Shown here: one piece after another, positions 5,525 through 36,501 of the stretch
How the letters are laid out: each line of letters starts with the position of its first letter
How positions within the stretch are numbered: position 1 is the first letter of the stretch
Source: Alphaproteobacteria bacterium
GTDB lineage: Bacteria; Pseudomonadota; Alphaproteobacteria; TMED109
Reading direction: 5' to 3'
DNA length: 64,000 nucleotides
Assembly (NCBI GenBank): GCA_022825235.1
Contig: JAJDYI010000049.1
Span: 1-64,000 of the forward strand
Notes under the pieces: model-generated
Seen by the model: only the letters and a program-made list of their open reading frames with translations
Databases searched by the model: none
Told to the model about the DNA's origin: nothing
Position numbers and translations under genes: made by a program

Positions 5525-5536
5525 TGTTAACGATCC

Positions 5537-7327: not shown

Positions 7328-7346
7328 CACAGTTCCGGGGGGCAGG

Positions 7347-12614: not shown

Positions 12615-12811
12615 CCTGACCGAGGCTGGATGGCCAAGCTGCCGGCTAACGAATCTGTGGGCCGTGCGGTTGGAAACAGCGAAGCTGAAGCTTTGCGCGG
12701 ACCTGTCACATGACTGGTCTGGTCCGGTGGTTGTCGTGGGCTGACGGGCGGGCCGTTCGAAATCGAGGTGCTGAACCGTCGATGAAAGCAGGGCAATCCC
12801 GAAAACGTATT

Positions 12812-13834: not shown

Positions 13835-14152
13835 GAACCTGCAGTGATCTGTTGCAACGGGTGTTGCCAAGTTGTTTACCGCACGCAACGTCTTCGGATG
13901 ACTGCGCAGATATTCGCTTGCCTGCGGGGACCGGCACATCATCCCGCACGACTGGTGGGCACGCCATGGTCTCATTGCGCAAGAACTCCAGCAGACTTCG
14001 TTCGATCAGCCGCGGGCGGCATTCACGGAACTGGACGTTGCCCTTCCTTATTCCGGCACAAGCTCGCAAGAGTCCCAGATGTGAACCACGTGGGCCACTC
14101 GGTCCGGGGTGCCCTTTTCCGCCGGCGAAACGCAACTTTCCAGCAGGTTCTC

Positions 14153-14196
14153 AACATCCTGCCTCCGGGTCGATAAATCCAAGGAGGCAGGATGTT
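14153..14196. terminator. Perfect 14-bp inverted repeat, terminator-like hairpin
   Basis: AACATCCTGCCTCC (14153-14166) and its exact complement GGAGGCAGGATGTT (14183-14196) flank a 16-base loop, about 65 bases downstream of the minus-strand porin stop. No T-run follows on either strand, so it is not a classical intrinsic terminator. It could protect the 3' end of the porin mRNA or stop transcription together with Rho, or bind a dimeric protein. Confidence 0.5.
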
Positions 14197-14261
14197 CTAC
14201 GTGGGTTTTGGAAGCCGATGTTCCTGTCCAGAGGCTGCAGCACGTGGGGGTTCGTGACTGA

Positions 14262-15455: not shown

Positions 15456-15922
15456 GTCGTTAATCGCCTCCAGGTCACGAATGTGTGGCCGTGGTCACCA
15501 AGGAAAAAGGCGCGGACTTTGCGCCAGTGGACATGGGGCGATACGCGTGGTCCAGGTTGGATGGAGATTCAGAACCTCAACGAAGACTGAAGGACCGCCC
15601 CATGCAAGCGAAGTGTATCTGGACCCAGCTAACTTTTGAATGCCTTGACCGCTGCCGAGCGGTCTTCGGGGCGTACGCGGGGGTAAGTCGTCGCCCGCTG
15701 TAAGGCTTGCGACTTCCACGGGGCCGCAGCATCGTGATCGGGAGCGCGAGCGGACCAGCGAGCCATGTGTCGATGAAGGAAGCCGTGTCGGCGTCCTCGT
15801 CCCTGACCTGCCGGCGTTGCCGATCCGAATCCTGATCCGCACAATCGGCCCGATAATGCCGGGCGAGTTCGACGAAGCATAGCTGTCGCCCGGACGGTTC
15901 AGCGCGCGAAAGGGATCGGGCC
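15456..15922. other. Intergenic between porin and helicase
   Basis: Divergent upstream region of the porin and the helicase. A minus-strand stretch around 15730-15880 has protein-like composition but no start or family. No further element was seen. Confidence 0.35.
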
Positions 15923-20073: not shown

Positions 20074-20451
20074 GAAGTGGCCTCCCTGACGGTTCCCTCC
20101 GACGCTGCCCGCTCCCAGGAAATGGGACGGCGGATGAAGGAAGGAAGCAGGGGCCGCGCACCGGATCGGCAGTCAAGCGCGAGCACTGCGAAAGCAATGT
20201 TATTGCTCCGATAGACATACTTCGGAAAGGGCAGGAACGGCCCGCTCAGGGCATCACCGCTTCGGCCACTCGGCACGATGCTCGGGTCCGGAAACGTGAT
20301 CGTCCAGCAGTGCCGGAGTCCCCAGAACGATTAACCCGTCGGTGTCCCGAGTTGATCGAGATTCCCGTCTGGTGCAGGCTTCAGGCAAGGCTCGGCGTCG
20401 GCAGCACCCGCTTCGACGATGCATGTTTGGGCCGCAAAGGAGGACTTCGTG
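20074..20451. other. Intergenic upstream of the betaine/choline operon
   Basis: No gene recognised. The end carries a very strong ribosome site AAAGGAGG (20436-20443) eight bases before ATG 20452. No clear -35/-10 pair was seen. Confidence 0.45.
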
Positions 20452-21474
20452 ATGAGGTGGAAGATCATCGGAGGGCTTGGGCTTGCCTCGATCGTATGGG
20501 CCCTGAGCCCTCTACTGGCCCAGGCGGACTCCCATGGGGAATGCGGCACCGTGACGGTCGCGGACATGAACTGGAACTCCGCCACGTTCATCGCCAACCT
20601 TGACCGCTTTATCCTGGAACACGCGTACGGCTGCGACGCCCAGCTCGTGCAGGGCGACACGATGCCGACCGGCACGTCCATGGTGGAGAAGGGCGAGCCA
20701 AATGTTGCGCCGGAGCTCTGGAGCAACTCGTTTCGGGCCGCCATCAACGTTGGCGTGGCGGAAGGCCGGCTGCTGGTGGCCGGCCGGGTCTTCTCGGACG
20801 GCGGCGAGGAAGGCTTCTGGGTGCCGAGCTACATGGTCGCAGAGCGGCCGGAGCTTGCCACCATCGAGGGCGTGATCCAGCACGCCGGACTGTTCAAGAA
20901 TCCTGAGGACCCCAGCGAATCGCTGTTCATGGGCTGCCCGTCAGGCTGGAACTGCCAGATCTCGGCCGAGAATCTCTACCGGGCGCTGGGCCTTGAAGAG
21001 GCCGGGTTCGCTTTGGGAGATCCCGGTTCGGCGGCTGGTCTGGACGGTTCCCTGGCCAAGGCCTATGAGCGCGGCGAGCCGTGGTTCGGATACTATTGGG
21101 CGCCGACCGCGCTGCTTGGCAATTACACCATGGTCAAGGTCGATTTCGGATCCGGTGCCGATGTCGAGGAATTTCAGACCTGCACCACCCAGCCAGACTG
21201 CGCCGACCCGAAGCCGACGATGTACCCGCCTTCGCCGGTCGATACCCTCATCACGGCAGATCTTGCCGAACGCGCGCCGCAGGCCGTCGGCTATCTCTCT
21301 GCCCGTGCGTTCGGCAACGACTTCCTGAACGCGTTGCTCGCCTGGATGAATGAGAACCAGGCGGACGGCGAGACCGCGATGGTGCATTTCCTGACCAACT
21401 ACGAGGACATGTGGCTCCCGTGGGTGGCTGACGATGCTGCCATGCGGATCAAGAGCGCACTGGCCGAGCTCTGA
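20452..21474 (+). CDS. Glycine betaine/choline-type ABC transporter, periplasmic binding protein
   Basis: 340 residues. ATG 20452 sits eight bases behind AAAGGAGG, and a signal peptide ends near SPLLAQADS. The mature protein has the OpuAC/ProX class II fold signature: VTVADMNWNSATFIANLDRF, TGTSMVEKGEPNVAPELW, EEGFWVPSYMVAERPEL, WFGYYWAPTALLG and aromatic residues fit for a quaternary-ammonium cage. The Cys pairs (ECG, FMGCPSGWNC, CTTQPDC) suggest disulfides. It delivers substrate to the permease and ATPase that follow in the same direction. A near copy at 10803-11813 has a stop codon in its signal peptide. The exact ligand (betaine, choline or a relative) is not determined. Confidence 0.88.
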   Translation: MRWKIIGGLGLASIVWALSPLLAQADSHGECGTVTVADMNWNSATFIANLDRFILEHAYGCDAQLVQGDTMPTGTSMVEKGEPNVAPELWSNSFRAAINVGVAEGRLLVAGRVFSDGGEEGFWVPSYMVAERPELATIEGVIQHAGLFKNPEDPSESLFMGCPSGWNCQISAENLYRALGLEEAGFALGDPGSAAGLDGSLAKAYERGEPWFGYYWAPTALLGNYTMVKVDFGSGADVEEFQTCTTQPDCADPKPTMYPPSPVDTLITADLAERAPQAVGYLSARAFGNDFLNALLAWMNENQADGETAMVHFLTNYEDMWLPWVADDAAMRIKSALAEL

Positions 21475-21478
21475 TGGT

Positions 21479-21503
21479 GCGCGGCGGCCTCCTGCCGCCG
21501 CGC
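21479..21503 (+). terminator. GC-rich hairpin behind the binding-protein gene
   Basis: GCGCGGCGG (21479-21487), a 7-base loop and the exact complement CCGCCGCGC (21495-21503) begin five bases after the binding-protein stop. There is no T-run, so it is probably a partial terminator or an mRNA-stabilising stem. Such stems commonly keep the binding protein more abundant than the permease and ATPase of the same operon. Confidence 0.5.
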
Positions 21504-21768
21504 CCGCCTTCGGACGGTGCCACCCGCCCTGCTCGTCGTGCAGCGCGGGCGGCGCGGGTGGCGCCGTCCCCGAGCCCACGGCGCATGCACGGAAGAACCG
21601 GACCCCGCAAGGTACGGCGTCCCTCGCATTGCGGTTGCAAGTCTGCGACCCTGCGTTGACCAAGCCGACGCGGATACGCGCTTCACGTGCCGAATTCGCA
21701 ATCTGGAGGACGACCGGAGCAGCCACACGTACATGAAGCGACGCTGACAACCCAGGAGATCTGCCCCG

Positions 21769-22668
21769 ATGGCCAAAAACGCATGGTGGATCGAGTTTCC
21801 GCAGATGGAGCGCGAAACACTGGTGGCAATCCGCAAGGCGCTCGACGGTGCCTACCGAGACTTCTCGCGGTCATACGGTGACGTGATCGAGGCCGTGTTC
21901 GAGCCCCTGCTGTACTTCCTGGTCTGGTTCGAGAAACTCCTGCTCAACGCCCCGTGGTGGTCTGTCCTGCTCGCGGTCTGCGCCCTCGCCTACCTCACGA
22001 GCCGATCATGGAAGATCGTCGCCGGGGCCATTGTCGCCTTCCTGTTCATCGGTTTCTTCGGCATGTGGGAGGACACGATGAGCACCATGAGCATGATCGC
22101 GGTGAGCACCCTGCTGGCGATCGCGCTCGGGGTGCCGGTGGGCATCCTGATGGCCCGCTCAAACCGCACACAGGCCGTGGTGACGCCGTTGCTCGACGTC
22201 ATGCAGACCATGCCTGCATTCGTCTACCTCATTCCGGTCGTCATGCTGCTCGGGATCGGCAAGGTGCCGGGGCTGCTCGCGGTCGTGATCTACGCCATCC
22301 CGCCGGTGATCCGGCTCACCAATCTCGGCATCCGTCTGGTCGACCGCGAGGTGCTGGAAGCGTCCGATGCATTCGGTGCCAGCGGCTGGCAGCGGCTTGT
22401 CGGGGTGCAGATACCGCTCGCGTTCCCAACCATCATGGCCGGGGTCAACCAGACGATCATGATGGCCCTGGCGATGGTCGTCATCGCATCGATGATCGGT
22501 GTCCAGGGCCTCGGCCAGCCGGTCCTTCGATCCATCACCAATCAGTACTTCACGCTGGGCCTGCTCAACGGGCTGGCCATCGTCGCGCTCGCAATCATCT
22601 TCGACCGGGTGTCCCAGGCTTACGGCAAGCGCCTTCAACTGCAGTACAAGCAGGCGCACCATGGCTGA
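21769..22668 (+). CDS. proW: Glycine betaine/choline-type ABC transporter permease (ProW-like)
   Basis: 299 residues with about six membrane helices and the ABC permease EAA region: EVLEASDAFGASGWQRLVGV, then QIPLAFPTIMAGVNQTIMMA. The N-terminal soluble segment, GVPVGILMARSNR and MIGVQGLGQPVLRSI are typical of ProW/ChoW. It forms the inner-membrane channel, probably as a homodimer. A GGAGAT ribosome site precedes ATG 21769. It follows the binding protein by 294 bases and overlaps the ATPase gene by eight bases, so translation of the two is coupled. Confidence 0.93.
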   Translation: MAKNAWWIEFPQMERETLVAIRKALDGAYRDFSRSYGDVIEAVFEPLLYFLVWFEKLLLNAPWWSVLLAVCALAYLTSRSWKIVAGAIVAFLFIGFFGMWEDTMSTMSMIAVSTLLAIALGVPVGILMARSNRTQAVVTPLLDVMQTMPAFVYLIPVVMLLGIGKVPGLLAVVIYAIPPVIRLTNLGIRLVDREVLEASDAFGASGWQRLVGVQIPLAFPTIMAGVNQTIMMALAMVVIASMIGVQGLGQPVLRSITNQYFTLGLLNGLAIVALAIIFDRVSQAYGKRLQLQYKQAHHG

Positions 22669-23695
22669 ACCCATGATCCGGATCCAGGGCCTCTACAAGA
22701 TCTTCGGGGCTGCCGGGGAAGCAGTCCTGCCGATGGTGCGCGACGGCATGGGAAAGCAGGAACTGCTGGACACCCATGGCTGCGTGCTCGGACTGCGGGA
22801 CATCAACATGTCGGTGCCGCCGCGCTGCATCCAGGTGGTCATGGGACTGTCAGGATCGGGGAAGTCAACCCTGATCCGGCACATCAACCGGCTGATCGCG
22901 CCGACCGCCGGCGAAATCATCGTGGATGGCACCGACGTGGCCGGCATGGACGGTGCGACGTTGCGGGAGTTTCGCCGGCACCGGGCATCAATGGTCTTTC
23001 AGCGCTTTGCGCTCATGCCCCACCGGAGCGTCCGTGACAACGTGGCCTACGGGCTCACGGTCCAGGGACTGCAGAGTGCGGACGTCGAAAAGCGGGCCTC
23101 CCGCTGGATCGAGCGGGTCGGTCTCCAGGACTTCGCCGACCGGTACCCCGGGGAACTTTCAGGTGGCATGCAGCAGCGCGTCGGCCTGGGCCGGGCGCTG
23201 GCGACCGATCCCGACATCCTGCTGATGGACGAGGCGTTCAGTGCGCTCGACCCGCTGATCCGCTACGACATGCAAAACATGCTTCTCGATCTGCAGACAG
23301 AACTGAAGAAGACCATCGTCTTCATCACCCATGATCTTGATGAGGCGCTCCGCATCGGCGACAACGTCGCCATCCTGCGGGACGGCGGCATGGTGCAACA
23401 GGGGAAGCCCCAGGACATCGTGCTGACACCCGCCGACGACTACGTCGCGGATTTCGTGAAGGACGTCAACCGGGGGAAGCTGGTCCGGGTCGAGAGCATC
23501 ATGAAACCTGGAACCACGTGTGCCAGTGCCCCCGCCATCCCAATCGGGACGCGACTCGAGCGAGCCGCGCTCGCTCTCTCGGAAGCGGCCGCGAAACTCG
23601 GCAAGGTCACGGATCGCGACGGCACGGCTCTCGGGATCGTGTCGCAGCTCGATCTGCTGGACGCAATGGTCCGGCGCCGGCGGCCTTCTCCATAG
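22661..23695 (+). CDS. proV: Glycine betaine/choline-type ABC transporter ATPase (ProV-like)
   Basis: 344 residues from ATG 22661. It has Walker A GLSGSGKST, Q-loop FQRFALMPHRSV, signature LSGGMQQRVGLGRAL, Walker B ILLMDEAFSALDPL and H-loop FITHDLDEA, all in the ProV pattern (YKIFG start, GMGKQELL). After the ATPase core, about 60 residues (IMKPGTTCASAP to GIVSQLDLLDAMV) are a single reduced CBS-like segment instead of the two CBS modules of long ProV proteins, so ionic-strength sensing may be weak or absent. An in-frame ATG at 22673 is an alternative start. It energises uptake by the ProW-like permease. Confidence 0.93.
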   Translation: MAEPMIRIQGLYKIFGAAGEAVLPMVRDGMGKQELLDTHGCVLGLRDINMSVPPRCIQVVMGLSGSGKSTLIRHINRLIAPTAGEIIVDGTDVAGMDGATLREFRRHRASMVFQRFALMPHRSVRDNVAYGLTVQGLQSADVEKRASRWIERVGLQDFADRYPGELSGGMQQRVGLGRALATDPDILLMDEAFSALDPLIRYDMQNMLLDLQTELKKTIVFITHDLDEALRIGDNVAILRDGGMVQQGKPQDIVLTPADDYVADFVKDVNRGKLVRVESIMKPGTTCASAPAIPIGTRLERAALALSEAAAKLGKVTDRDGTALGIVSQLDLLDAMVRRRRPSP

Positions 23696-23788: not shown

Positions 23789-24421
23789 TCAGGCCTGGCC
23801 GCTTCCGCCCACTTGACGCATGAGGGCAGCCAGGGCACGGAGTTCCATCCCCGGCGCATCCGACGCTTCCAGCGCCGTCGCCGCACTGGCGCGTTCATCG
23901 GCCGTGCGGTTCTGATTCAGCTTGAACGTGCCGTCGACGCGGTCGACCGTGAGTTCGACCGGCATGATCCCACGCCTCAGGTTCGCCAGCACCAGGGGGT
24001 CGATCCTGTCTGTCTGCCACGCGGTCTTGGGGGCAAGCCGATCCTCGAACGTCTGTACAAGGCGATCAAGATGCGCGGGGAGAGCGTCATCTTCCAGCCC
24101 TCGCAGAGTTCCCCTGATGTGAACCGCGACATAGTTCCAGGTGGGCAACTTGCCGGGCGCCCTGTACCAGTCCGGCGAGATGTAGCTATCGGGTCCCGAC
24201 ACGATCAGCAGCGCGTCGACCGGCCCTTCGAGCAGGTGCTGTGCCAGCGGGTTGGCCCGCACCAGGTGGGCGGCAACCCCCTCCTGCTCCATCACGAAGG
24301 GCACGTGGGCGGCGAGCACCCCCTGAGGGCCGGCCGCGGTGAATATCCCGAAGCCGCGTTCGCGGACGAACTCCAGCAGGCGCGCGCTCGGTTCCTGCCG
24401 AAAAACAGGATTCGGGTGCAT
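23789..24421 (-). CDS. paiB: PaiB-type FMN-binding protein
   Basis: 210 residues matching PaiB, annotated as an FMN-binding negative transcriptional regulator with a split-barrel flavin-binding fold: MHPNPVFRQEP start, LLIVSGPDSYISPDWY, LPTWNYVAVHIRG, APKTAWQTDRIDP and GIMPVELTVDRVDGTFKLNQ. The DNA-binding role was inferred from Bacillus; other members may be plain flavin proteins. It is the last gene of a minus-strand run after the di-haem oxidoreductase, 147 bases apart, so co-transcription is possible but unproven. Confidence 0.9.
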   Translation of the reverse strand: MHPNPVFRQEPSARLLEFVRERGFGIFTAAGPQGVLAAHVPFVMEQEGVAAHLVRANPLAQHLLEGPVDALLIVSGPDSYISPDWYRAPGKLPTWNYVAVHIRGTLRGLEDDALPAHLDRLVQTFEDRLAPKTAWQTDRIDPLVLANLRRGIMPVELTVDRVDGTFKLNQNRTADERASAATALEASDAPGMELRALAALMRQVGGSGQA

Positions 24422-24568: not shown

Positions 24569-26041
24569 CTACAGGGAACGCAGGAACGCCAGCAGTTGCT
24601 CCCGTTCGGCCCGGGACAGCTGCGCCACCCGATCGCGTGCCGCCGCGGCCTCTCCGCCATGCCAGAGGATGGCCTCCAGCAATCCGTCCGCCCTGCCGTC
24701 GTGCAGGAGCCGGAAGCTGCCGCTGACTGTTTCGGTCAGGCCGATGCCCCAGAGAGGCGGGGTCCGCCATTCACGCCGCAAGGGATCAGTGCCGCTGTCG
24801 GCGAGTTCGTCACCCATGTCATGCAGCAGCAGGTCCGTGTAGGGCCAGATCAGCTGGAAACTGTGCTCGGGCCGGCCGGCGATCTCGGGGGTCACGAACT
24901 TCGGGACATGACAGTCCGCGCAACCCGCCGCGAAGAAGATGCGCTTGCCGCCCAAAACCTCGGGCACCTCGGCATCCCGTCTCGCGGGCACCGCCAGATT
25001 GCGGGCATAGAACACGACCTGGTCGAACAACCGGGCCGAAATCTCGATCCCGTCGCCATTCCGGTCCCCACCCAGGGCTTCCAAACACGCCGCCTGCGTC
25101 GGCGTGCAGGCTCCCGCAGCACCCGGCAACGCGGGACTGCCGATCCCGATGTCCTCGAAGAACGCCTTCGCCGCCTGCGCGCGAACGGAGGGAGTCTCGG
25201 CCTTCCAGCCGAAGCGGCCGAGCAGGCGACGGCCCGATGCCTCCGCAGGCACCCAGGACACGCGGCCGGATATACCGTCGCCGTCAGCATCGTCCGGGTC
25301 GGCGTGCGCCAAAATGTCGGCTTCCGAGATGGCCTCGAGGAGCCCGAGCCCGATCATGGGCGGGGCAACGCGCGGGGAGATTCCGGTCTGCGGGTCCAGG
25401 GGTCCCCAGCCGAGGCCCCGGACTTCGTACAGCGGATGGCGCAGCGTGATGTCCGGCAGCCCCGGCAGCGATACCGGCCGGTGCGCGATTACAATCCTGC
25501 CCTCGGACGGGACTCCGGGGACGGCATGGGGCTGGAGCTGTCCCCCGTAGACCGGGTCCGCCCCGTTCGGGTGCGTCAATGCCAGCAACAGCGTGCCGCC
25601 CCGGTCGGACTCGTTGAGCGGGGGACGGCCGCGGCCATCCTTGCGGTGGCACCGCTGGCACGAGCGGGCATTGAAGAGCGGGCCGAGTCCGTCGGAGGCG
25701 GCCGTGGAGGCCGGCGCGGTGACCCAGAGCTTACGAAAGACCGCGTCTCCCACCCGGAACCGGGTCCGCTGGGCAGGCGCGAGATTCTGGGCCGGGTGCG
25801 AGAACGCGTTCCGGGTGGGCGCGTGAAAGCTCGTTCCGGCTCCGCCGGAATGATTCTCGTACGGCTCGATCCCGGAAAAGTCGTGCGGCGGCGCGGCAAG
25901 TGCGGCGGGCGGTGTGGCGCCCGCAGCGGACGGCGCGCCGACCTGATCCGCGATGCGGTCGTCGCCGGCCGCCCCTTGGGCGATGGCCAGGCCGAGCAGC
26001 AAGCAACAGGCGGCAACGGCCGGACGAGCGATGACGTCCAC
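24569..26041 (-). CDS. Di-haem CxxCH oxidoreductase (DHOR/DUF1111 family)
   Basis: 490 residues from GTG 26041, preceded by AGGAGGTT at good spacing. The signal peptide (LLLGLAIAQGAAG) sends it to the periplasm. Two haem c sites are visible: RSCQRCH near residue 130 and AGCADCH near 375. The family motifs GLGPLFNARSC, DGDGISGR, FGWKAE and LWPYTDLLLHDMG-like LIWPYTDLLLHDMGDELAD are present. DUF1111 proteins (often called thiol oxidoreductases) resemble MauG/cytochrome c peroxidases and are frequently found beside imelysin genes. Here the imelysin gene lies 42 bases upstream. It may handle the redox state of iron taken up by the neighbouring TonB system; this is inference. Confidence 0.88.
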   Translation of the reverse strand: MDVIARPAVAACCLLLGLAIAQGAAGDDRIADQVGAPSAAGATPPAALAAPPHDFSGIEPYENHSGGAGTSFHAPTRNAFSHPAQNLAPAQRTRFRVGDAVFRKLWVTAPASTAASDGLGPLFNARSCQRCHRKDGRGRPPLNESDRGGTLLLALTHPNGADPVYGGQLQPHAVPGVPSEGRIVIAHRPVSLPGLPDITLRHPLYEVRGLGWGPLDPQTGISPRVAPPMIGLGLLEAISEADILAHADPDDADGDGISGRVSWVPAEASGRRLLGRFGWKAETPSVRAQAAKAFFEDIGIGSPALPGAAGACTPTQAACLEALGGDRNGDGIEISARLFDQVVFYARNLAVPARRDAEVPEVLGGKRIFFAAGCADCHVPKFVTPEIAGRPEHSFQLIWPYTDLLLHDMGDELADSGTDPLRREWRTPPLWGIGLTETVSGSFRLLHDGRADGLLEAILWHGGEAAAARDRVAQLSRAEREQLLAFLRSL

Positions 26042-26083: not shown

Positions 26084-27331
26084 CTACCCTTCGACCTCGA
26101 ACCGGAACTGGCCGACCCCGAGCGCCGGCCCGACCCTTATCAGCTGTTCGCTGAACGCAATCAACGCACGGATGGCATCGCCGATCAGGCGCCTACCGTC
26201 GGAGTCGCCGGGTGCCAGCAGTTGGTCGTAGGCCTTCCCATCGGCGGCCGCTTCGCGAATCGCGTCCATGCGCCGGATCGCAGTGTCCATGTCTTCGCGA
26301 AGCTGCCGGTCAAGCCCCGGATCAACCGCGCGTACCAGCGCTGACAGCGACGGACCCGCCACCAGCGAACCGTCGATCCTCCGGTACCGGGCCAGGTACA
26401 CGTTCCGCAATCCCACCGCGTCCCAGTAATGGGATTCGTGCGTGTTGTCGGAAAAGCAGTCGTGCTCCTCCTCAGGATCGTGCAGTTCCAGGCCCACCTG
26501 CATGCGCGCCCCCGCCAGCTCCCCTGCGGCAAGATTGCCGAGACCGGTGACGATCGCCCGCACGATTCCCTCCGCGTCCTGACTCATCAGCGCAGACCGG
26601 GCCGCTCCGTCCTCTTCCCAGGCACCGGCCATCCAGGCTAGATCGCGCACCAGTAGGTCGACGGCCGTCCGGAGATAGGCCGTCCGCCGGCCGCAATTTC
26701 CGCCCGTGCACCGGGCCGGGTCGAAGTCGGTGGCCGGACGCTCACCGGCGCCCGGCCCGGTTCCGTTCAGGTCCTGGCCCCAGAGCAAGAATTCGATGGC
26801 GTGGTAGCCCGTGGCGACGTTGGTCTCGATGCCTTCGGCCTCGTGCAGCACGTCTTCGAGCAGGCGGGCATCAATCGGGTCTGCCGTCACGGTCATGCCG
26901 TTGATCAGCAGTGTGCGATTGGCAATGACGTTGACGGCATCCGGATGCCCGGCGACATAGTCGATCAATCCTTCGTCCAGGGGCCACGCGTTCACCCGCC
27001 CTTCCCAGTCATCGACCATTGTGTTCCCGAACCGGAACACTTCCGTCTGCATGTAGGGGATCCGGCTTTCCTTCCAGGCTGTCCTGGCGGCGGCCAGGGC
27101 CGCGGGGGAAGGGGCTGCAATCAGGTCGGCCACCGCCTCCTGCAGCACGCGGGCGCGCAGGAGCGAGTCTTCGTAGCCAGCCAGCGCGATATCCGCGTAT
27201 ACGCGCGCCGCTGCTGCCGGCGACACCTCGTTCTCGGCGGTGGTGGCGGACACGGGGCCGCCGGTCGTGCAGACCCCTGCAAAGAGTGCGGCAAGCGCCA
27301 GCCGCCCGAACGGAGCTTGATTCCTGGACAC
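26084..27331 (-). CDS. Imelysin-family (M75) periplasmic protein
   Basis: 415 residues with a signal peptide (LALAALFAGVCTTGGPVSA). The family GxHxxE motif appears as GYHAIEFLLWGQD near residue 175. Further family blocks are RFGNTMVDDWEGRVNAWPLD, EGIETNVATGYH and HDPEEEHDCFSDNTHESHYW. Imelysins (IrpA, EfeO M75 domains) are iron-regulated periplasmic or outer-membrane-associated proteins thought to bind iron; despite the peptidase label most seem not to be proteases. It lies between TonB and the di-haem oxidoreductase in the same direction, in line with a metal-uptake role. Confidence 0.9.
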   Translation of the reverse strand: MSRNQAPFGRLALAALFAGVCTTGGPVSATTAENEVSPAAAARVYADIALAGYEDSLLRARVLQEAVADLIAAPSPAALAAARTAWKESRIPYMQTEVFRFGNTMVDDWEGRVNAWPLDEGLIDYVAGHPDAVNVIANRTLLINGMTVTADPIDARLLEDVLHEAEGIETNVATGYHAIEFLLWGQDLNGTGPGAGERPATDFDPARCTGGNCGRRTAYLRTAVDLLVRDLAWMAGAWEEDGAARSALMSQDAEGIVRAIVTGLGNLAAGELAGARMQVGLELHDPEEEHDCFSDNTHESHYWDAVGLRNVYLARYRRIDGSLVAGPSLSALVRAVDPGLDRQLREDMDTAIRRMDAIREAAADGKAYDQLLAPGDSDGRRLIGDAIRALIAFSEQLIRVGPALGVGQFRFEVEG

Positions 27332-27556: not shown

Positions 27557-28834
27557 TTAGCGCTCCGCGATCCGGTATACCACCGGGAGCAGGATCGACT
27601 TGACGCCCGCCCCTTCCGGCAGCGGCTCGAACGGCGCAGCGCGCAGCACTGCCCGCTGCGCCGCGCGCTGCAGCCGCGGCGACGCATCGGTGCGCGCTTC
27701 CTGGATCTCGATATCGATGACGCTCCCATCCTCGCGAACGCGAATCAGCATCACGACAGTGCCTTCTTCGCCGAGGTCGAGTGAACGACGCGGGTAGCTG
27801 CGGGCAGCGATTGAGCTGATCTGGCCGCGAAGGCGCACGTAGTATGCCTCCGGAACCCCCGCCTCGCGGGCGGCCCGCGCCGCCGCCGTCTCAGGCTGCC
27901 GTGGCGCGGCCGGAGGGGCCGCCAACGCGGGCGGCGCCGACGCCACCACCGCCTCGGATGCGGGCAACGGCTCCACAGACGGGGGCGGCGCTTCCGCTGG
28001 TCGGGGTGCGACAACCGGCGGACTGGTCGCCGTCGGAGGCGGCGCTTCGGCCGCTGGCGCGGGCGGCGGAGTGACCGCAGACGGCGTTGGCCGGGGTGCC
28101 GGCGCCGGCACGGGCGGTGGTGGCGGAGCCAGGTCGGGGTCGGCCACGGCCTGCGGAGCGGCTGTGACCGGCGGCGGCGGAGGCGGCGGTTCGAGGCCGG
28201 GCACGAATACCTGTTCCAGGGACGGCGGCTCGACGGGCCGCAACTCCGCCGGGGCCGGCGGCGGTGTGATCTCCGGACGCAGCTGCGGGGTCTCCGGAAG
28301 ATCCGGCGGCGCGGGAGGTGGCTCCGGCTCCGGTTCGATTAGCTCCTCGGGTTCAGGCTCGGGCAGTGGCTCGGTGACCGGCGGCGGTTCTGGAACCGGC
28401 TCGACGACGACCTCAACCCGCTCCGGTTCCGGCGGCGTTGCCTGTGGCGTCACCGGCGGGGGTGGTGGCGGCGCGAGTTCTGGCCGCGGCGGCGGGAGGT
28501 CCGGGACCGGCTCGACGACCGGCGGCGGCTCCGTCGCCGGTGGCGGGGTAACCGGCGGCGGTGCCTCCAGGGCGGGCGGCTGGTGCGCTGGCGGTAGATC
28601 CTCTTGCTGTGGCAGCGCCGAGGCAAACGGGTCGGGCGGCAGGTCTCCGAGCGGCACGTCGTGCCCGAGCTCCAGTGAAATGAGCGGCTCCAGGTCGAGT
28701 TCGGGTTCGCTCAGCGCCCAAATCCCGACGACCACCGGCACCAGCACGTGCAACGTGGCGGCGAGAGCCGTAGCGCCGGCCACCTCCAGGAAGCCGATGT
28801 CATTGGAGTCGCGCTGGACGGCCTGGGGTATCAC
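27557..28834 (-). CDS. tonB: TonB-family energy transducer with very long Pro/Glu-rich linker
   Basis: 425 residues. An N-terminal membrane anchor (ATALAATLHVLVPVVVGIWA) is followed by about 290 residues dominated by Pro, Glu and Ala (runs such as PEPEPEELIEPEPEPPPAP). The C-terminal TonB fold covers about the last 95 residues (YYVRLRGQISSIAARSYPRR, EEGTVVMLIRVREDGSVIDI, LLPVVYRI). It connects the ExbB/ExbD proton motor to the outer-membrane receptor. The linker is about three times the usual length. The ATG overlaps the stop of the second ExbD gene (ATGA), so translation is coupled. Confidence 0.92.
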   Translation of the reverse strand: MIPQAVQRDSNDIGFLEVAGATALAATLHVLVPVVVGIWALSEPELDLEPLISLELGHDVPLGDLPPDPFASALPQQEDLPPAHQPPALEAPPPVTPPPATEPPPVVEPVPDLPPPRPELAPPPPPPVTPQATPPEPERVEVVVEPVPEPPPVTEPLPEPEPEELIEPEPEPPPAPPDLPETPQLRPEITPPPAPAELRPVEPPSLEQVFVPGLEPPPPPPPVTAAPQAVADPDLAPPPPPVPAPAPRPTPSAVTPPPAPAAEAPPPTATSPPVVAPRPAEAPPPSVEPLPASEAVVASAPPALAAPPAAPRQPETAAARAAREAGVPEAYYVRLRGQISSIAARSYPRRSLDLGEEGTVVMLIRVREDGSVIDIEIQEARTDASPRLQRAAQRAVLRAAPFEPLPEGAGVKSILLPVVYRIAER

Positions 28835-29244
28835 GGCGTGTCGGGCTCGGTGCGGCGCGTGGCGAGCAGAACCTGCTCGAAACCGGCCGCCTTGGCCTCG
28901 TCCATGACCTCTTGCAGCATCGAGACGGTGGCAAGCTGCGCCACCTTGATCAGGAGCGTCGTCTTCTCCGCCGTCACTGCGGCGCGAAACGTGGCCGGCA
29001 GGCCGTCCCGGGCAACCGGCGCTCCGTCGATCGTGAGCTCCCCGTCGGCGGCCACCGTCAGCACTGCCTGGACCGAGACGCCGGGCTCGCTGCTCTCAGC
29101 CTCCGGAAGCTGATGGTCAATTGGGTCGACCGTCCGGAACGTGCTGGTCAGGATGAAGAAGATCAGCAGCAGGAAGACGATATTGATCAGCGGGATCATG
29201 TTGATCGCGTGCTGTCGATGGCGCGGGGCCCCTTCGAACTTCAC
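28831..29244 (-). CDS. exbD: ExbD/TolR-family protein (second copy)
   Basis: 137 residues: a short cytoplasmic start (MKFEGAPRHRQHAINMIPLI), one membrane helix NIVFLLLIFFILTSTF preceded by the conserved MIPLIN, and a periplasmic ExbD domain (LLIKVAQLATVSMLQEVMD). In ExbD the conserved membrane aspartate carries protons; here the segment reads LINIVFLLL, so Asn stands where IDIVFLLL-type sequences have Asp. Its ATG overlaps the stop of the first ExbD gene and its stop overlaps tonB. Having two ExbD proteins of which one may lack the proton-carrying Asp suggests an ExbD heterodimer. Confidence 0.9.
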   Translation of the reverse strand: MKFEGAPRHRQHAINMIPLINIVFLLLIFFILTSTFRTVDPIDHQLPEAESSEPGVSVQAVLTVAADGELTIDGAPVARDGLPATFRAAVTAEKTTLLIKVAQLATVSMLQEVMDEAKAAGFEQVLLATRRTEPDTP

Positions 29245-29648
29245 GGTTCGTCCCGCACCGCGATCGCTATGGCGTCGACCCCGGCGAGGCGGATGTCGTC
29301 CACCACCGTGATCAGGCGTTGCACCGCCTCCTGGGAGGGTGCCACGACCACCACGTTCAAGTCGGCGTCCTCGGCGCGCGCCTGCTCCACGCGCTCGCGG
29401 ATCTCATCCGGCTCCACCACGACATTCCCGAACGTTACTGCCCCATCGTCGTGCAGACGGATGACCAGGGAGTCCGATTCGCCGCCACCTGCCGACGACG
29501 TCGCAGTGCCCGGGGCGGCCAGGTCCAGCGCCTCCAGGTTCAGGAACGAACCGGCCAGCATGAAAAACACCAGCAAGAGGAACACGATGTCGATCAGCGA
29601 AGCGATCGAGAGTTCCGGGCGGCGGCGTTCCTGTTCGCCGAAGTTCAT
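29241..29648 (-). CDS. exbD: ExbD/TolR-family protein (first copy)
   Basis: 135 residues. The N-terminus MNFGEQERRRPELSIASLID leads into the helix IDIVFLLLVFFMLAGSF with the conserved proton-carrying Asp, then a periplasmic domain (SLVIRLHDDGAVTFGNVVVE, LNVVVVAPSQEAVQRLITVV). It is part of the inner-membrane motor with ExbB. It begins 40 bases after the ExbB gene and overlaps the second ExbD gene by four bases (ATGA). Confidence 0.92.
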   Translation of the reverse strand: MNFGEQERRRPELSIASLIDIVFLLLVFFMLAGSFLNLEALDLAAPGTATSSAGGGESDSLVIRLHDDGAVTFGNVVVEPDEIRERVEQARAEDADLNVVVVAPSQEAVQRLITVVDDIRLAGVDAIAIAVRDEP

Positions 29649-29688: not shown

Positions 29689-30312
29689 TCAGACCGATTG
29701 CGAGGCGATCACGCGGGCGGCAGCGTCGCGCATCAGCGCCCGAACCCCCTCGATCTTGCGCTCAAGGTAATGCACCGCCCCCAGCGCCGGGATCGCGACG
29801 ATCAAGCCGAAGGCGGTCGTCAGGAGCGCCTCCCAGATCCCGCCGGCAAGCTGGCTAGGGTCGACGCGGGCGCCCGCCTCCTCCAGGCGCCCGAACGCCT
29901 TGATCATGCCGATCACGGTACCGAGAAGGCCGATCAGCGGGCTCAGGTTCGCGACGACCTCAAGCGAGCGAATGTACGTCTCAAGGGCGCGGATCTCGAC
30001 TGATCCGATCCGCTCAACCTCGGCTTCCTGCAGTTCACGCGGCAGATGCCCCGTGTCAAGTGCCGTTTCCACCACGCGCGCGGCCGGATGGCGCGACAGC
30101 GCCATCCGGCGCCGGATTTCGTGCGTGGACCCGGTCGCGATGAGTTCCATCATCCCGGACCGGCTCGCACCAATCCTCCAGAACTGCAGAAGCTTCAACA
30201 GAATGATGGCGAGCGAAGAGATCGACATGAGGAGCAGGACGTACATGACGACGCCCCCCTTTTGGAGCAGGTCTGCCGCAGCATCCCAGTGCTCCAGGCT
30301 GAACTCCGGCAT
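29689..30312 (-). CDS. exbB: ExbB/TolQ/MotA-family proton channel protein
   Basis: 207 residues with three membrane segments: about 20-42 (VVMYVLLLMSISSLAIILLK), about 112-135 (LSPLIGLLGTVIGMIKAF) and about 150-172 (LLTTAFGLIVAIPALGAVHY). The blocks SLEVVANLSPLIGLLGTVIG and GIWEALLTTAFGL are diagnostic of ExbB/TolQ. It assembles a pentamer around ExbD and energises TonB with the proton gradient. It heads exbB-exbD-exbD-tonB, and the receptor gene lies 118 bases upstream in the same direction. Confidence 0.93.
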   Translation of the reverse strand: MPEFSLEHWDAAADLLQKGGVVMYVLLLMSISSLAIILLKLLQFWRIGASRSGMMELIATGSTHEIRRRMALSRHPAARVVETALDTGHLPRELQEAEVERIGSVEIRALETYIRSLEVVANLSPLIGLLGTVIGMIKAFGRLEEAGARVDPSQLAGGIWEALLTTAFGLIVAIPALGAVHYLERKIEGVRALMRDAAARVIASQSV

Positions 30313-30430: not shown

Positions 30431-33094
30431 CTAGAACTGATAGCGCATCCCGATGTAGAAGGACTGCGGGGCACCTGGCGACAGGAAGCGATGGCCTTCA
30501 TGCCGTCCTTCGTCGAGTTCCAGAATGGGAACCTCGCCCTCACATTCACCACCCTCGTCCTCGCATTCGCCAAGAATGCCGAACGTGCTGTAGTCAGTAC
30601 CCAGCAGGTTCTCGATCCTGCCAAATAGCGTGAGTGCGCCAATCTGCCAATCCATCGTCAGGTTGACCAAATTGTAACCATCCGTTTTTTCAAGCTGGTT
30701 GGATTCGTCTCCCCGCAGGTACACGCCGGAACGCGCAACCAAGGTGGTGCCAATCCGCAGGCCGATTGCGAGCGTATAACCGACACCCAGCTTAACCGTA
30801 TGGTCCGGAACGCCCGGTATCCGGTTCCCCGCGGCTACATCGATGACCCTACCTTCGTCTCCGTCTTCGCTTTCGATTACCCTTGCGAGCGGGTGGTTGG
30901 CTCCGGGGAGCACGTCATCCTCGGCAAAAGTTGCCTGCACATAGCTGTAGTTCGCGTTCCAGTCCCAACTGTCAAATCGGCCACCAACCTGACCGTCAAA
31001 TCCGACCCGTCGGGTCTCACCGAAGTTCCGGAAATATCCCAGACCAGGCTGGCGATCAGGATTCGTGACCGCCACAAACAGGATGTCGTCTTCGTTGACA
31101 CTCGCGTAGGTTCCCATCTCCCACGCCACGGGACCTGCAGCAGTCATGGTGCGCCCACGAATTCCTGCCTCGACCGAGCGGGTGACCACTTGGTCCAGAA
31201 ACGGGTCAGCAACAAAGGCATTGGGAAGGCGACACGCCAGCTCTTCATCAGCACACCCGAGCTCAGCCGCCGTCGGTGCACGGCTCGCCTCCCGATAGCC
31301 GCCATACACGGACATATTGTCTGTCAGCCGATGGGTCAGGCCGAGCGCTGGGTTGAAGCGAGTGTACGTCCACGATTCGTCTGGCCGTCCGGCAATGTCG
31401 ACATCGACAACGACCCGGTTGTAGCGCCCGCTCGCAGTCAAGTCCGTGCGAGCAGAAAGCGCGAACGTGTCCGACACATAGAAGCCCAGTGCGCTCGTCT
31501 CTGACTTGACGCTTACCGGACTGTTGTCATCAAACGGTTCCGGATCGACCTCACCGTCTTCGATCTCCTCTTCGCACTCTTCGATGTCGTCCACCTCACA
31601 TTCGTGGTGGTGGCTCAAGACGTACGCTTCTCCGTCGATCAACAACGGTGGAACGTATCGGTCGCGATGCAGCTGACCGGCCAGCGTCATGCTCTCAAAC
31701 GCTGTCTCAGACTGATCGTAGGCAACCCCGAGCGCCACTTCGTGTGCGCCTTGCGTCATTCCCAGCTGTAGAGCGAGACCTTGCGTACTTGTGTCGGTCG
31801 ACGTGAGGTTGTGCGCGCCCGGCACGATTACTTTTTCCCCGTCCTCATCGTCATCGTCGTCTTCGACCATTCCCTCGCCCATTTCTTCGTCCATTTCATC
31901 GTCGTCTTCTTCCTCGACCTCGTGCTCATAGAACCCTTCTTTCAACGCCGCCAACTGACTCTCTGAGCCGTCCTCTATGACGATTGGCCTGGGGGTCCTG
32001 TCCGAACTGCCCTGCGGATACCCGAACAGGAAACTCACTGTCTCTTCTTCCTCTTCTTCGCCCTCCTCTTCCTCTTCTTCTTCGATTTCGCCAGCAAGCA
32101 GGTAACCACTGTCTTCGTCGGAGATGCCACCGTCAAATTCATCGCCGTTGATCGTGTCCCGTTGCAAGTCGCGATGATAGGCAACACCCGAAATCCGCAT
32201 GGTGTCAGAAATCTCGAAATCCCCGCGGATAGTCAACATGCTGAGATCGTTTTCAGTGATATCCGGATAAGTGAACACAGATTCGCGGCGTAATTCGAGC
32301 AAGTCCACCGGCGTTGCACCATTCCCGGTGATTTCGGTCCGGGCAAACAGGCCGCTGAAACCGAGGGAGCCGCGCTCAAACACATGTGTCGCATCGCCAT
32401 ACAACCGGAGAATGCTGCTGTCGCTGTTGTCGCGCCAGCCATCATCCGCGCCCCGCTCGGCGGCCACGTAGATCCCAGTGGCATCCAGCTTGCCGCCAGC
32501 CTGGACCGTTGTGTCCAGACGGCCATGCGAGCCACCCTTGATCTCAAACTCCGACCCACTGAACGACAGTCCAGTGTGCGTCTGGAGCGACAACGCCCCA
32601 CCCAGCGCGTTCAGACCAAACGCAGGGTTACCGCCTACGAGGTCGATTCGCCTGATCGCGGCGTCCGGCACCAGATCCCACTGCATCGTGTCGCCGAAGC
32701 TTTCATTGATACGGACACCGTTCAAGTACACGGCAATCCCCTGCGCCTCACCGAGCAGCGGCGAGAGCGTGAAACCGCGATAAGAGAGGTTCTGCTGGTA
32801 CGGGCTGTTTTGCACATCCGTCACGCTGACCCCGCGCAGCGTCTGTTCGACGAGGTCGGTCAGATTTCGCGGTTGCAGCGCGTCGATGTCCTCGTCCGTG
32901 ATGGTTTGGACTGCAGCAGGAACGCGATCGCGTGCCACTCCAGTGCCGGGCATCGGGGTAACTCCGATGACCTCAACCTCGGGCAAGGTTTCTTGCGCGA
33001 CGACGGGAACTGCGCCGAATCCGGCTGCGACGAGCACAGCCACACCCAACGCCGGCACGCCCAATCGGCGCGCCGAACGCAACAACAATCTCAT
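30431..33094 (-). CDS. TonB-dependent receptor with extremely acidic extracellular loops
   Basis: 887 residues from ATG 33094, chosen because a typical signal peptide starts there (RRLGVPALGVAVLVAAGFGA, then VVAQ); GTG/ATG 33169 would add 25 residues. A plug domain (AVQTITDEDIDALQPRNLTD, LGEAQGIAVYLNGVRINESF, GNPAFGLNALGGALSLQT) and a beta-barrel ending in FYIGMRYQF are clear. Unusual are low-complexity acidic inserts at about residues 331-352 (EIEEEEEEEGEEEEEE), 390-416 (EVEEEDDDEMDEE, VEDDDDDEDGE), 494-525 (SHHHECEVDDIEECEEE), and 840-868 (GECEDEGGECEGE). They are likely extracellular loops that bind cations, probably metal. The receptor heads a TonB-ExbBD, imelysin, di-haem gene run, in line with import of iron or another metal. 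No Fur box was seen upstream. Confidence 0.9.
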   Translation of the reverse strand: MRLLLRSARRLGVPALGVAVLVAAGFGAVPVVAQETLPEVEVIGVTPMPGTGVARDRVPAAVQTITDEDIDALQPRNLTDLVEQTLRGVSVTDVQNSPYQQNLSYRGFTLSPLLGEAQGIAVYLNGVRINESFGDTMQWDLVPDAAIRRIDLVGGNPAFGLNALGGALSLQTHTGLSFSGSEFEIKGGSHGRLDTTVQAGGKLDATGIYVAAERGADDGWRDNSDSSILRLYGDATHVFERGSLGFSGLFARTEITGNGATPVDLLELRRESVFTYPDITENDLSMLTIRGDFEISDTMRISGVAYHRDLQRDTINGDEFDGGISDEDSGYLLAGEIEEEEEEEGEEEEEETVSFLFGYPQGSSDRTPRPIVIEDGSESQLAALKEGFYEHEVEEEDDDEMDEEMGEGMVEDDDDDEDGEKVIVPGAHNLTSTDTSTQGLALQLGMTQGAHEVALGVAYDQSETAFESMTLAGQLHRDRYVPPLLIDGEAYVLSHHHECEVDDIEECEEEIEDGEVDPEPFDDNSPVSVKSETSALGFYVSDTFALSARTDLTASGRYNRVVVDVDIAGRPDESWTYTRFNPALGLTHRLTDNMSVYGGYREASRAPTAAELGCADEELACRLPNAFVADPFLDQVVTRSVEAGIRGRTMTAAGPVAWEMGTYASVNEDDILFVAVTNPDRQPGLGYFRNFGETRRVGFDGQVGGRFDSWDWNANYSYVQATFAEDDVLPGANHPLARVIESEDGDEGRVIDVAAGNRIPGVPDHTVKLGVGYTLAIGLRIGTTLVARSGVYLRGDESNQLEKTDGYNLVNLTMDWQIGALTLFGRIENLLGTDYSTFGILGECEDEGGECEGEVPILELDEGRHEGHRFLSPGAPQSFYIGMRYQF

Positions 33095-33256: not shown

Positions 33257-34735
33257 TCAGGATTGGGCTGACCGGAGAGCTGACGAGAGGCCACACAGCA
33301 GATCATCTGCGATCAGACCCGCACCGTACTCCGAAGCCGCTGCGCCATGCAGCCATACGCCGCTGGCGGCTGCCGCGAACGGCTCCATGCCCGCGGCCAG
33401 GAGGCCTCCAATGATTCCGGCCAGCACATCGCCGGAGCCTGCCGTTGCCAGCTGCGCCGGTGCGTTTGCATTGACGATGGCGTCCCCGTCCCTGGTGGCC
33501 ACGACGGTATCCGGTCCCTTGCTCACCACCACAGCGCCCGTTCGTTCCGCAGCCGCTCGGGCACGGGTCAGCCGGTCACCCTCGATGTCGGGAAACAGTC
33601 GCCGGAACTCCCCGTCGTGCGGCGTCAGCACGGCCTCCTCAGCGCCCCCGACGAGTGCCGCCAGGGCATCCACGTCGCCGGCAAAGCTGCTGAGCGCATC
33701 CGCATCCAGCACGAGACGCAGGCCCGCCTCCGCTGCAACGGCCACGCGCAGCCGGGTCGCAGGTCCCACACCGTTACCGGGTCCCAACACGGCCGCCCGG
33801 ACCTTTGAACCCGCGATCAACGCCTCCAGATCCTCCGGCTCGGCAGCAGGCGCCACCATCAGAGCCTTCGGGTCACCAACGTAGGCAGCGAGCGCATCGC
33901 TCGGCACGGCGAGCGTGACCAGTCCCGCCCCGGCCCGAAGCGCGGCATGGGCAGCAAGGCGGGCGGCACCGGCGCGCTCAGGCGGGCCGCCGACGACCAC
34001 CACGTGGCCACGCCGGTACTTGTGGCTGTGCCAGTCCGGCTGTCGCACTTGCTCTTGCCACAGCCCCGGACCGTTGAGCAGAGCCGTTCCCGAGGCGGCG
34101 CCCCCCGGGATGCCGATGTCGGCGAGCACGATCTCGCCTGAGAGCGCGCGGCCAGGAAAAAGGACGTGCGCCGGTTTCAGCCGGTGGAACGTGACCGTCG
34201 CGCGGGCCGACAGGACGCCCGGGAATGCGACGCCGGTGTCGCCGTCAATCCCGCTGGGCAAATCGACGGCAATGCAAGGCAGATCCCGCGCCGCGTCGAA
34301 CATGGCCAGGACGCCGGCCGGCAGCGGCCGCGACAACCCGGCGCCGAATACCGCATCCACGACGACAGCCGCCCCGTCAATGAGTGCGGGGTCCCAAGGA
34401 CAGATTCCGCCCGTCCAGCGGGCGGCCGCCATGGCTGCGTCACCGGCAAGGGCTTCGCTGGCGCCGAAGAGCGCAAGGCGGACGTCGCGTCCATGGCGCG
34501 CGAGATGCCGAGCCGCGACGAAGCCATCGCCGCCGTTGTTGCCCGGCCCTGCCAGGACCGCGACGGTGCCGCTGGGACAACGCGTATGCACTGCTTCCGC
34601 AACCGCCCGCCCGGCATTTTCCATCAGCACGATGCCGGGCGTGCCCGATCGGATGGCGAAACGATCGGCGGCCGCCATCTGGTCCACCGTCAGGATTTCC
34701 GGCGGCAACGCCGGTCCAGATGACATCAGCCGCAT
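33257..34735 (-). CDS. nnr: Bifunctional NAD(P)H-hydrate epimerase / dehydratase
   Basis: 492 residues from ATG 34735; the open frame continues 100 codons further upstream, but these are unrelated to the family. The N-terminal YjeF_N epimerase domain (about 1-215) has VLMENAGRAVAEAV and AVLAGPGNNGGDGFVAARHL. The C-terminal ADP/ATP-dependent dehydratase has HKYRRGHVVVVGG, AAVLGPGNGVG, LVLDADALSSFAGD, LTPHDGEFRRLFPDI and QLATAGSGDVLAGIIGGLLA. It repairs hydrated NADH and NADPH in the cytoplasm. This is a housekeeping gene. Confidence 0.95.
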   Translation of the reverse strand: MRLMSSGPALPPEILTVDQMAAADRFAIRSGTPGIVLMENAGRAVAEAVHTRCPSGTVAVLAGPGNNGGDGFVAARHLARHGRDVRLALFGASEALAGDAAMAAARWTGGICPWDPALIDGAAVVVDAVFGAGLSRPLPAGVLAMFDAARDLPCIAVDLPSGIDGDTGVAFPGVLSARATVTFHRLKPAHVLFPGRALSGEIVLADIGIPGGAASGTALLNGPGLWQEQVRQPDWHSHKYRRGHVVVVGGPPERAGAARLAAHAALRAGAGLVTLAVPSDALAAYVGDPKALMVAPAAEPEDLEALIAGSKVRAAVLGPGNGVGPATRLRVAVAAEAGLRLVLDADALSSFAGDVDALAALVGGAEEAVLTPHDGEFRRLFPDIEGDRLTRARAAAERTGAVVVSKGPDTVVATRDGDAIVNANAPAQLATAGSGDVLAGIIGGLLAAGMEPFAAAASGVWLHGAAASEYGAGLIADDLLCGLSSALRSAQS

Positions 34736-35115: not shown

Positions 35116-36501
35116 ATGAACCGCACGCTACGTGCAACTGCGGCCGCCGCCGCGCTAATGGTTGGCCTTGCGGCCGGCAGCACCGCCTCAGCACAGGTTA
35201 CTGAGGCGGAGCAGAACGCCGAGATCGAAGCACTCAAGGAAGCCATCCAGAACCTGCAGATCAAGCTGAAGGGCCTCGAGGCCCAGCAGGCCGCCCAGGC
35301 GGAAGCACAGGCCGACAAGAGCGACGAACCGAGGATCAAGGTCGGCCCCGGGCTCTCGATTTCGAAGGGCAGAAACTCGGTTGCGCTCACCGGCCGTCTG
35401 CACTGGGACGTGGGCATCTACCCGTCCGACAAGTTCGAAAGCGAGAACTTCGACACCGGGACCAACCTGCGTCGTGGCCGACTCGGCGTGAAAGGCAAGT
35501 CCGGCGGGTTCTCCTACAACTTGACGATCGATGTCGGCGGCTCAGCCGATGACAACAGTGAAGCCGAGATCGACGAAGCCGCGATCTATTACTCGCCGTC
35601 GAAGATGATCAAGATCGGCTTCGGGAAGATGAAGATTCCGGTCACGTTTGAAGAGAGCACATCCTCGAACGACATCAGCTTCATTGAGCGCTCGCTGCCG
35701 GTCGACATGTTCACCGACAAGACCCTGGGTCCCAAGGCTGTCAACGCGCAAATCTGGGTGTATGGCACGCAGAGCCTGATCGAGGCAGCAATTCACAGCA
35801 ATGGCGATACCAAGACGTACGGCATCGACGGTGGCGCGGAGGACATGGGCTTCACCGTTCGCGCGGTCTACGCGCCGATCAAGACCGAGACGTCCGCGCT
35901 GCACCTCGGCGGCTGGATGGATCGGTCCGGGGGGCCGGTCGGCGACGCCCGATGGGGTTACCGGACAGAGCTCAACGTTGCGGATTACAAGCTCCTGTAC
36001 GGTGACAAGGAGAACAGTGATCTCGACGCCATGGTTCATTACGGTCTGGAACTCGCCTACCTGAACGGTCCGTTCTGGGCCCAGGCCGAATACATCAAGG
36101 GCACCTTCGAGAAGTCCTCCGGTCCCGATGTGGAAGCCGACGGGTACTACGTACAGGCCGGTTACATGATCGGCGGCGCGAAGCGCTACAACATGAAGAA
36201 GGGCGCCTGGTCCGGGCCGAAGGTCAAGAACCCGTTCCCCGGAGGGGGACCGGGCGTGATTGAGCTTGCTGCTCGTTACAGTGTCATGGACTTCGGTACC
36301 GACACATCGACGCCGTCGCACTACGGGAAGCAGTCGAACGTCACCCTCGGTCTGAACTGGTACCTCGACGGCAACACACGGGTCATGTTCAACACGATCC
36401 GCGTGGGTCTGGACGAGGCCACCAGCGGTACCTACGGCGAAGACGACTCCGTGACCGACGACTTCTGGGTACACGGTGTTCGCTGGCAGTACAAGTGGTA
36501 A
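35116..36501 (+). CDS. Outer-membrane porin, OprO/OprP-like, with N-terminal coiled coil
   Basis: 461 residues. The signal peptide ends at GSTASAQ, followed by a coiled coil (QNAEIEALKEAIQNLQIKLK) and then barrel strands in the phosphate-selective porin O/P pattern: SVALTGRLHWDVGIY, TNLRRGRLGVKGKSGGFSYN, IYYSPSKMIKIGFGKMKIPV, SSNDISFIERSLP, and the aromatic end HGVRWQYKW. The FGKMKxPVTFEE element and ERSLP are typical of this family. It is followed after 36 bases by a strong intrinsic terminator, so it is monocistronic. Substrate is unknown; phosphate is the best-known substrate of relatives. Confidence 0.88.
   Translation: MNRTLRATAAAAALMVGLAAGSTASAQVTEAEQNAEIEALKEAIQNLQIKLKGLEAQQAAQAEAQADKSDEPRIKVGPGLSISKGRNSVALTGRLHWDVGIYPSDKFESENFDTGTNLRRGRLGVKGKSGGFSYNLTIDVGGSADDNSEAEIDEAAIYYSPSKMIKIGFGKMKIPVTFEESTSSNDISFIERSLPVDMFTDKTLGPKAVNAQIWVYGTQSLIEAAIHSNGDTKTYGIDGGAEDMGFTVRAVYAPIKTETSALHLGGWMDRSGGPVGDARWGYRTELNVADYKLLYGDKENSDLDAMVHYGLELAYLNGPFWAQAEYIKGTFEKSSGPDVEADGYYVQAGYMIGGAKRYNMKKGAWSGPKVKNPFPGGGPGVIELAARYSVMDFGTDTSTPSHYGKQSNVTLGLNWYLDGNTRVMFNTIRVGLDEATSGTYGEDDSVTDDFWVHGVRWQYKW

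Follow-up and report, generated by a model that had tools for sequence, protein, structure and literature searches.

A LutH-like TonB-dependent receptor with poly-acidic loops as a candidate lanthanide importer in an alphaproteobacterium

A stretch of 64,000 nucleotides from an alphaproteobacterial genome (assembly GCA_022825235.1, contig JAJDYI010000049.1), hereafter the window, encodes a TonB-dependent receptor whose predicted extracellular loops are crowded with Asp and Glu. It is probably a LutH-like lanthanide receptor, in which an antenna of acidic loops would serve the lanthanide-type PQQ dehydrogenases of the host. The class of lanthanide receptors is known; the new element is the unusually acidic surface of this receptor, whose lineage has many lanthanide-type dehydrogenases.

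Receptor gene and acidic tracts

The receptor is encoded on the minus strand by an open reading frame (33094..30431) that begins with ATG, and by inspection about residues 1-34 form a signal peptide. Both Pfam domains score above their cut-offs (PF07715, Plug, 54.9 bits; PF00593, TonB-receptor barrel, 127.9 bits), and the protein has the plug, the 22-strand barrel and the C-terminal aromatic residue (...MRYQF) expected of a TonB-dependent receptor. Other receptor classes were rejected on curated cut-offs, namely, haem receptors (TIGR01785, 91.4 vs 316.85), siderophore receptors (TIGR01783, 84.5 vs 223.5) and the B12 receptor class. The first-pass annotation of this DNA had set the protein against ordinary siderophore receptors; that contrast holds, but the receptor passes no siderophore-receptor model and falls in a different clade.

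The inserts had also been described as almost wholly composed of Glu and Asp, and the motifs quoted are all present in the receptor, including those with Cys pairs and SHHHE. Besides the two longest tracts (Table 1), VEDDDDDEDGE occupies residues 410-420, SHHHECEVDDIEECEEE residues 494-510 and ECEDEGGECEGE residues 843-854, while L9 also has an acidic stretch, ESEDGDEG. These tracts are far beyond chance: the window contains four runs of seven acidic codons (GAN x7), where 0.01 would be expected, and 0 of 100 shuffles reached this count. A pattern search of the whole genome (3.85 Mb) returned 18 matches at about eight separate places, with 4 inside the receptor gene. The maximum number of acidic residues per 40 is 23 in the receptor, vs 8-11 in four further TonB receptors that this genome encodes. 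All four GA-codons are mixed in the tracts, which show no simple repeat, and the tandem arrays detected in the gene are weak (score 53-62; 12- and 24-bp at 31854-31912, and 21-bp at 30532-30572). Elsewhere in this genome, a run of twelve Asp was noticed (contig C3, 17404-17438) in an open frame of 412 residues with an apparent N-terminal membrane segment.

Table 1. Features of the receptor and its neighbourhood in the window (loops as predicted)
Feature	Position	Strand	Basis
LutH-like TonB-dependent receptor (class as assigned here), 887 aa	30431..33094	-	Plug and barrel domains, phylogeny
Plug domain, residues 57-167	32594..32926	-	Pfam; contains E131, D135, D140
Loop L4, residues 314-430, 117 aa, 47 Asp/Glu, 4 basic	31805..32155	-	Strand count; both longest acidic tracts
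Poly-Glu tract EIEEEEEEEGEEEEEE in L4, residues 336-351	32042..32089	-	Motif and acidic-run search
Mixed acidic tract EVEEEDDDEMDEEMGEGMVEDDDDDEDGE in L4	31835..31921	-	Motif and acidic-run search
Loop L5, residues 466-527, 62 aa, 20 Asp/Glu, Cys pair C499/C507, SHHHE	31514..31699	-	Strand count
Loop L9, residues 725-763, 39 aa, 9 acidic	30806..30922	-	Strand count
Loop L11, residues 834-876, 43 aa, 12 acidic, Cys pair C844/C851 (ECEDEGGECEGE)	30467..30595	-	Strand count
ExbB-like proton channel, same operon	29689..30312	-	Domain search, synteny
ExbD-like protein 1	29241..29648	-	Domain search, synteny
ExbD-like protein 2	28831..29244	-	Domain search, synteny
TonB-like protein, long Pro/acidic spacer and TonB_C domain	27557..28834	-	Domain search, synteny
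Imelysin (PF09375), genus-specific operon neighbour	26084..27331	-	Domain search, synteny
Di-haem oxidoreductase DHOR/DUF1111 (PF06537), genus-specific neighbour	24569..26041	-	Domain search, synteny
FMN_bind_2 protein, genus-specific neighbour	23789..24421	-	Domain search, synteny
NAD(P)H-hydrate epimerase/dehydratase (nnr), conserved upstream neighbour	33257..34735	-	Domain search, synteny
Porin_O_P porin, divergent, conserved in genus and some sister genera	35116..36501	+	Domain search, synteny

Loop topology and conservation of charge

Strand boundaries, set by visual inspection of the alternating pattern and then compared with a 32-sequence alignment, give a barrel of 22 strands whose ten periplasmic turns have 1-5 residues each in the window protein; the extracellular gaps are mostly long, and several are strongly variable in length. 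By this strand count, every acidic tract maps to extracellular loops L4, L5, L9 and L11, and none to a periplasmic turn, which agrees with the first-pass proposal that the inserts are exposed on the cell surface and makes this placement the predicted one. An AlphaFold2 model built on a shallow alignment of six closely related sequences of the genus had a pLDDT of 26 and a pTM of 0.17.

The inserts are not missing from close homologues, for the acidic tracts stand at identical positions in 7/7 genomes of the genus examined. In these seven genomes, the summed net charge of the loops ranges from -79 to -97; the family members outside the genus, 48 in number, have a median of -29, and L106, with -72, is the most acidic of them. 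Between subclades of the genus, the L4 insert shares an identity of 0.20-0.46, vs 0.72-0.78 for the rest of the receptor, with its acidity kept. Together with the mixed codons, this retention of acidity during sequence turnover argues for selection acting on charge, not on sequence. L106 and another receptor of the same family, L128, represent a separate lineage with a strongly acidic L4, perhaps convergent, with 38 and 32 acidic residues in this loop, respectively; the loop net charge of L128 is -56.

The same rapid divergence of the loop sequence would also suit a LutH-like receptor whose loops are no metal traps at all, and serve as low-constraint linkers, in phage escape, or in attachment to host matrix or calcium mineral. 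Receptors are often targeted by phages, and calcium minerals are bound by poly-acid. Against this reading, all seven genomes retain the net charge and the acidic class as the letters change, acidity has been raised jointly in four separate loops, and an acidic L4, usually with a Cys pair, is already present in the relatives, L106 having gone the same way. We therefore consider loops without a trapping role rather unlikely, while giving the idea real weight.

With regard to individual residues, a Cys pair is found in L4 of about 80% of the aligned family, the L4 of the window protein being without one; the Cys pairs of the motifs quoted earlier resemble disulfides more than metal ligands. The His residues of the loops seem non-functional because relatives lack them, so that His clusters were rejected as metal ligands and the role of metal-trap residues suggested earlier for SHHHE is not upheld. 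The conserved acidic residues of the family lie in the plug and in L2, L7, L8 and L10. In the plug, E131, D135 and D140 are acidic in nearly the whole family. Position 135, which matches the substrate-facing Q121 of the PQQ receptor PqqU and holds an acidic residue (Asp or Glu) in all but one of 55 family rows, is a plausible metal ligand. D217, E611, D630, D670, D796 and E797 are further acidic residues that may play a part.

Relationship to LutH-like receptors

In a tree of 51 proteins, obtained by a quick method and with some long outgroup branches, the 46 family members group in a single clade (SH-aLRT 100), from which PqqU and four receptors of other classes are separate. Plasmid homologues of the receptor (31-38% identity) were found in Variovorax, Sphingobium, Novosphingobium, Burkholderia multivorans and Paraburkholderia, and genes for PQQ alcohol dehydrogenase, PQQ biosynthesis, a PQQ-associated beta-propeller or PedF are adjacent to or near them. 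The Methylobacterium nodulans homologue is one gene from lanmodulin (LanM model 175.5 bits, cut-off 135). A further homologue, in genome G271, pairs with the window receptor as reciprocal best hit, and is preceded by genes matching TIGR03863 (PQQ_ABC_bind), TIGR03866 (PQQ_ABC_repeats) and TIGR03864 (PQQ_ABC_ATP), which we equate with lutA, lutB and lutE, and by further open reading frames. This gene order agrees with that of the lut cluster of M. extorquens, in which lutG and lutH come after the ABC genes (PMC7391723). The likeness to LutH systems thus includes relatives of the window gene that hold the place of lutH in a lut cluster or a place beside lanM.

The association extends to whole genomes, as PQQ alcohol dehydrogenases (strong matches) are present in 25 of the 30 alphaproteobacterial genomes that carry the receptor, vs 71 of the 357 that lack it (Fisher p = 2.6e-12), in a test on 387 genomes that ignores shared ancestry and with a dehydrogenase model that pools calcium- and lanthanide-type enzymes. 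Membership of the receptor in the LutH-like class appears fairly well supported, its identity with LutH resting on gene order and context.

LutH of Methylorubrum extorquens AM1 and the LutH-like receptor of Methylosinus trichosporium OB3b are TonB-dependent, as is the window receptor. LutH is needed for La uptake, and the lutH promoter is repressed by La (PMC7391723); LutH-like receptors are widespread and also plasmid-borne (PMC12482762). LanA of Methylotuvimicrobium buryatense is likewise a TonB-dependent receptor required for lanthanum uptake, but is treated as a distinct type, found mainly in Gammaproteobacteria (PMC12482762).

Other contexts were met within the clade. In Ideonella dechloratans (locus 4641-17924), a member lies beside genes for MbnP, the MATE exporter MbnM, a cytochrome c peroxidase and a two-component system, that is, methanobactin-type or copper-like genes, yet it belongs to the same receptor clade. 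The neighbourhood of a Caballeronia member contains no lut, lanM, PQQ alcohol dehydrogenase or methanobactin-type genes. Five genomes of 1.3-2.0 Mb from a single family encode a clear LutH-like receptor together with PQQ alcohol dehydrogenases, whose XoxF type was checked in one of them (G035), and may be marine methylotrophs of the TMED127 kind. No further relatives of the receptor turned up in a scan of viral contigs.

Lanthanide-related genes of the host genome

The genome carrying the window encodes eight PQQ alcohol dehydrogenases, located on eight contigs, and all eight have [WY]D-x-D at the metal site, which reads PHDEWDYDGVNE in the XoxF-like enzyme. The second Asp of D-x-D marks lanthanide-dependent enzymes, the calcium-type MxaF having Ala there. 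Lut-type ABC genes for a binding protein, a beta-propeller and an ATPase are grouped on contig C77; the binding protein scores 390.6 bits with the LutA model, just below the cut-off of 413.6, and the ATPase 307.7 bits, over its cut-off. PqqC is present as well. The genome thus combines lanthanide-type PQQ dehydrogenases, among them XoxF-type enzymes, with a Lut-type ABC system and PQQ synthesis, as do LutH systems and as expected of the host of a LutH-like receptor. No bona fide lanmodulin was found in the genome (best match 22.7 bits), and the loops of the window receptor are far more acidic than those of its lut- or lanM-linked relatives. The host is probably marine; some of the nearest named genome records presumably derive from marine sponges.

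Operon and genomic neighbourhood

The receptor gene sits in an exbB-exbD-exbD-tonB operon, and several sister genera keep the porin, nnr, receptor, exbB, two exbD and tonB genes together; the nnr product is probably unrelated in function to the receptor. Unlike lutH of AM1, the window gene, on contig C1, is not in a lut ABC cluster, a location that is a feature of the AM1 locus and is not required of other LutH-like receptors. Several observations speak against the lanthanide reading, namely, this position outside the cluster, the imelysin and DUF1111 neighbours, which are typical of iron uptake, the lack of a good lanmodulin match in the genome, and the different contexts of the Ideonella and Caballeronia members of the clade.

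This pair of genes immediately follows tonB in those members of the genus with contigs that extend there, and possibly links iron or another metal to the receptor locus. If the operon were an iron-uptake locus, the receptor would transport a ferric complex and its acidic loops would trap Fe3+. Imelysin and DUF1111 proteins are tied to iron uptake, as in EfeO/EfeB (PMC3143127), and genes for both are found in iron loci of the EfeUOB and icmP/irpA types as they are after the window operon; the receptor also has a weak likeness to haem and siderophore receptor models, far under the cut-offs. However, no EfeU permease was seen beside the window operon, and the receptor clade is not an iron clade but elsewhere accompanies lut, lanM and PQQ alcohol dehydrogenase genes. 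Furthermore, the imelysin/DHOR pair is absent beside the receptor in sister genera, which keep the porin, nnr, receptor, exb and tonB genes without it. An iron receptor is, in our judgement, improbable.

Several further features of the neighbourhood were recorded. Even some AT-rich sister genera have the Porin_O_P porin in the same position, with 24-31% identity, and the Sphingobium and Novosphingobium receptors also adjoin a porin. In a second sister group of five loci, HisI- and FolE-like genes, recognised by eye, come before the receptor, and a small TonB-like and a SufE-like protein come after it, with no adjacent ExbBD. On the plus strand of the window, positions 20419-23695 carry an apparent quaternary-amine (choline/betaine type) ABC transporter operon, assigned by eye. 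No Rfam families were found in the window, and this search therefore gave no riboswitch.

Comparison with PqqU

The closest solved structure is PqqU/YncD of E. coli (E 5.5e-38), which has the same 22-strand architecture, and family members occur near PQQ dehydrogenases, so that the receptor could be imagined as a relative of PqqU importing the same substrate, PQQ. However, it belongs to a separate clade with a long branch, and scores 55.5 bits with the PqqU model NF041535, vs a cut-off of 1200. The residues contacting PQQ in PqqU include Q84, Y99, Q121, N477, Y481, R536, R304, R365 and K274 (PMC12124388). The first six of these, the comparison being confined to them as R304, R365 and K274 could not be aligned, are replaced by Y, L, D, A, C and L, respectively, and the family as a whole does not conserve them. 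Tri-anionic PQQ would, moreover, be expected to be repelled by a strongly negative mouth, and the host, which has PqqC, probably makes PQQ itself. PQQ import is thus highly improbable.

Finally, it is scarcely credible that the tracts are replication-slippage noise. The weak 12-, 24- and 21-bp arrays may show how they grew, but the mixture of four acidic codons, the conserved tract positions across the genus, the involvement of four loops and the charge kept in seven genomes all contradict it.

Proposed mode of action

Fe3+, Ca2+ and lanthanides had been listed in the first-pass annotation as metals that the receptor might import; genome context and phylogeny favour lanthanides, which we take as the likely substrate. 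In the lanthanide reading, the receptor would bring lanthanides through the outer membrane, either as free ions or in complexes, with energy supplied by the ExbB-ExbD-ExbD-TonB proteins of its own operon, and the imported lanthanides would feed the lanthanide-type PQQ alcohol dehydrogenases. The poly-Asp/Glu loops L4, L5, L9 and L11 are predicted to form a densely negative ring around the barrel opening and would probably act as a weak, non-stoichiometric antenna, which enriches trivalent cations or positively charged complexes locally. The enriched cargo could then be handed to the conserved acidic site formed by the plug and L2, L7, L8 and L10. The acidic "antenna" is specific to the genus, and we infer its role as such.

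Seawater Ca and Mg would largely occupy the carboxylates. This weakens the case for a simple antenna and is the main physical objection to it. A more far-reaching version, in which the loops would collect bare trivalent lanthanides at picomolar levels without any lanthanophore and pass them to the conserved acidic plug site, strikes us as unlikely; if true, direct capture by poly-Asp/Glu would be a new metal-capture mode for TonB-dependent receptors.

Significance

We found no paper on acidic loops in lanthanide receptors. For marine TMED127 bacteria, lutABEFCG genes have been reported, with no genes for lanthanophores or storage proteins, and further scavenging strategies are expected; their outer-membrane receptor was not named (PMC12542740). 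The receptor described here is a concrete candidate for the means by which marine bacteria that have lanthanide-dependent enzymes acquire these metals at picomolar levels. With it, the LutH-like family would also come to include a lineage that has a linked energy operon and, per genome, eight lanthanide-type dehydrogenases. The natural acidic sequences of the loops may be useful for rare-earth binding.
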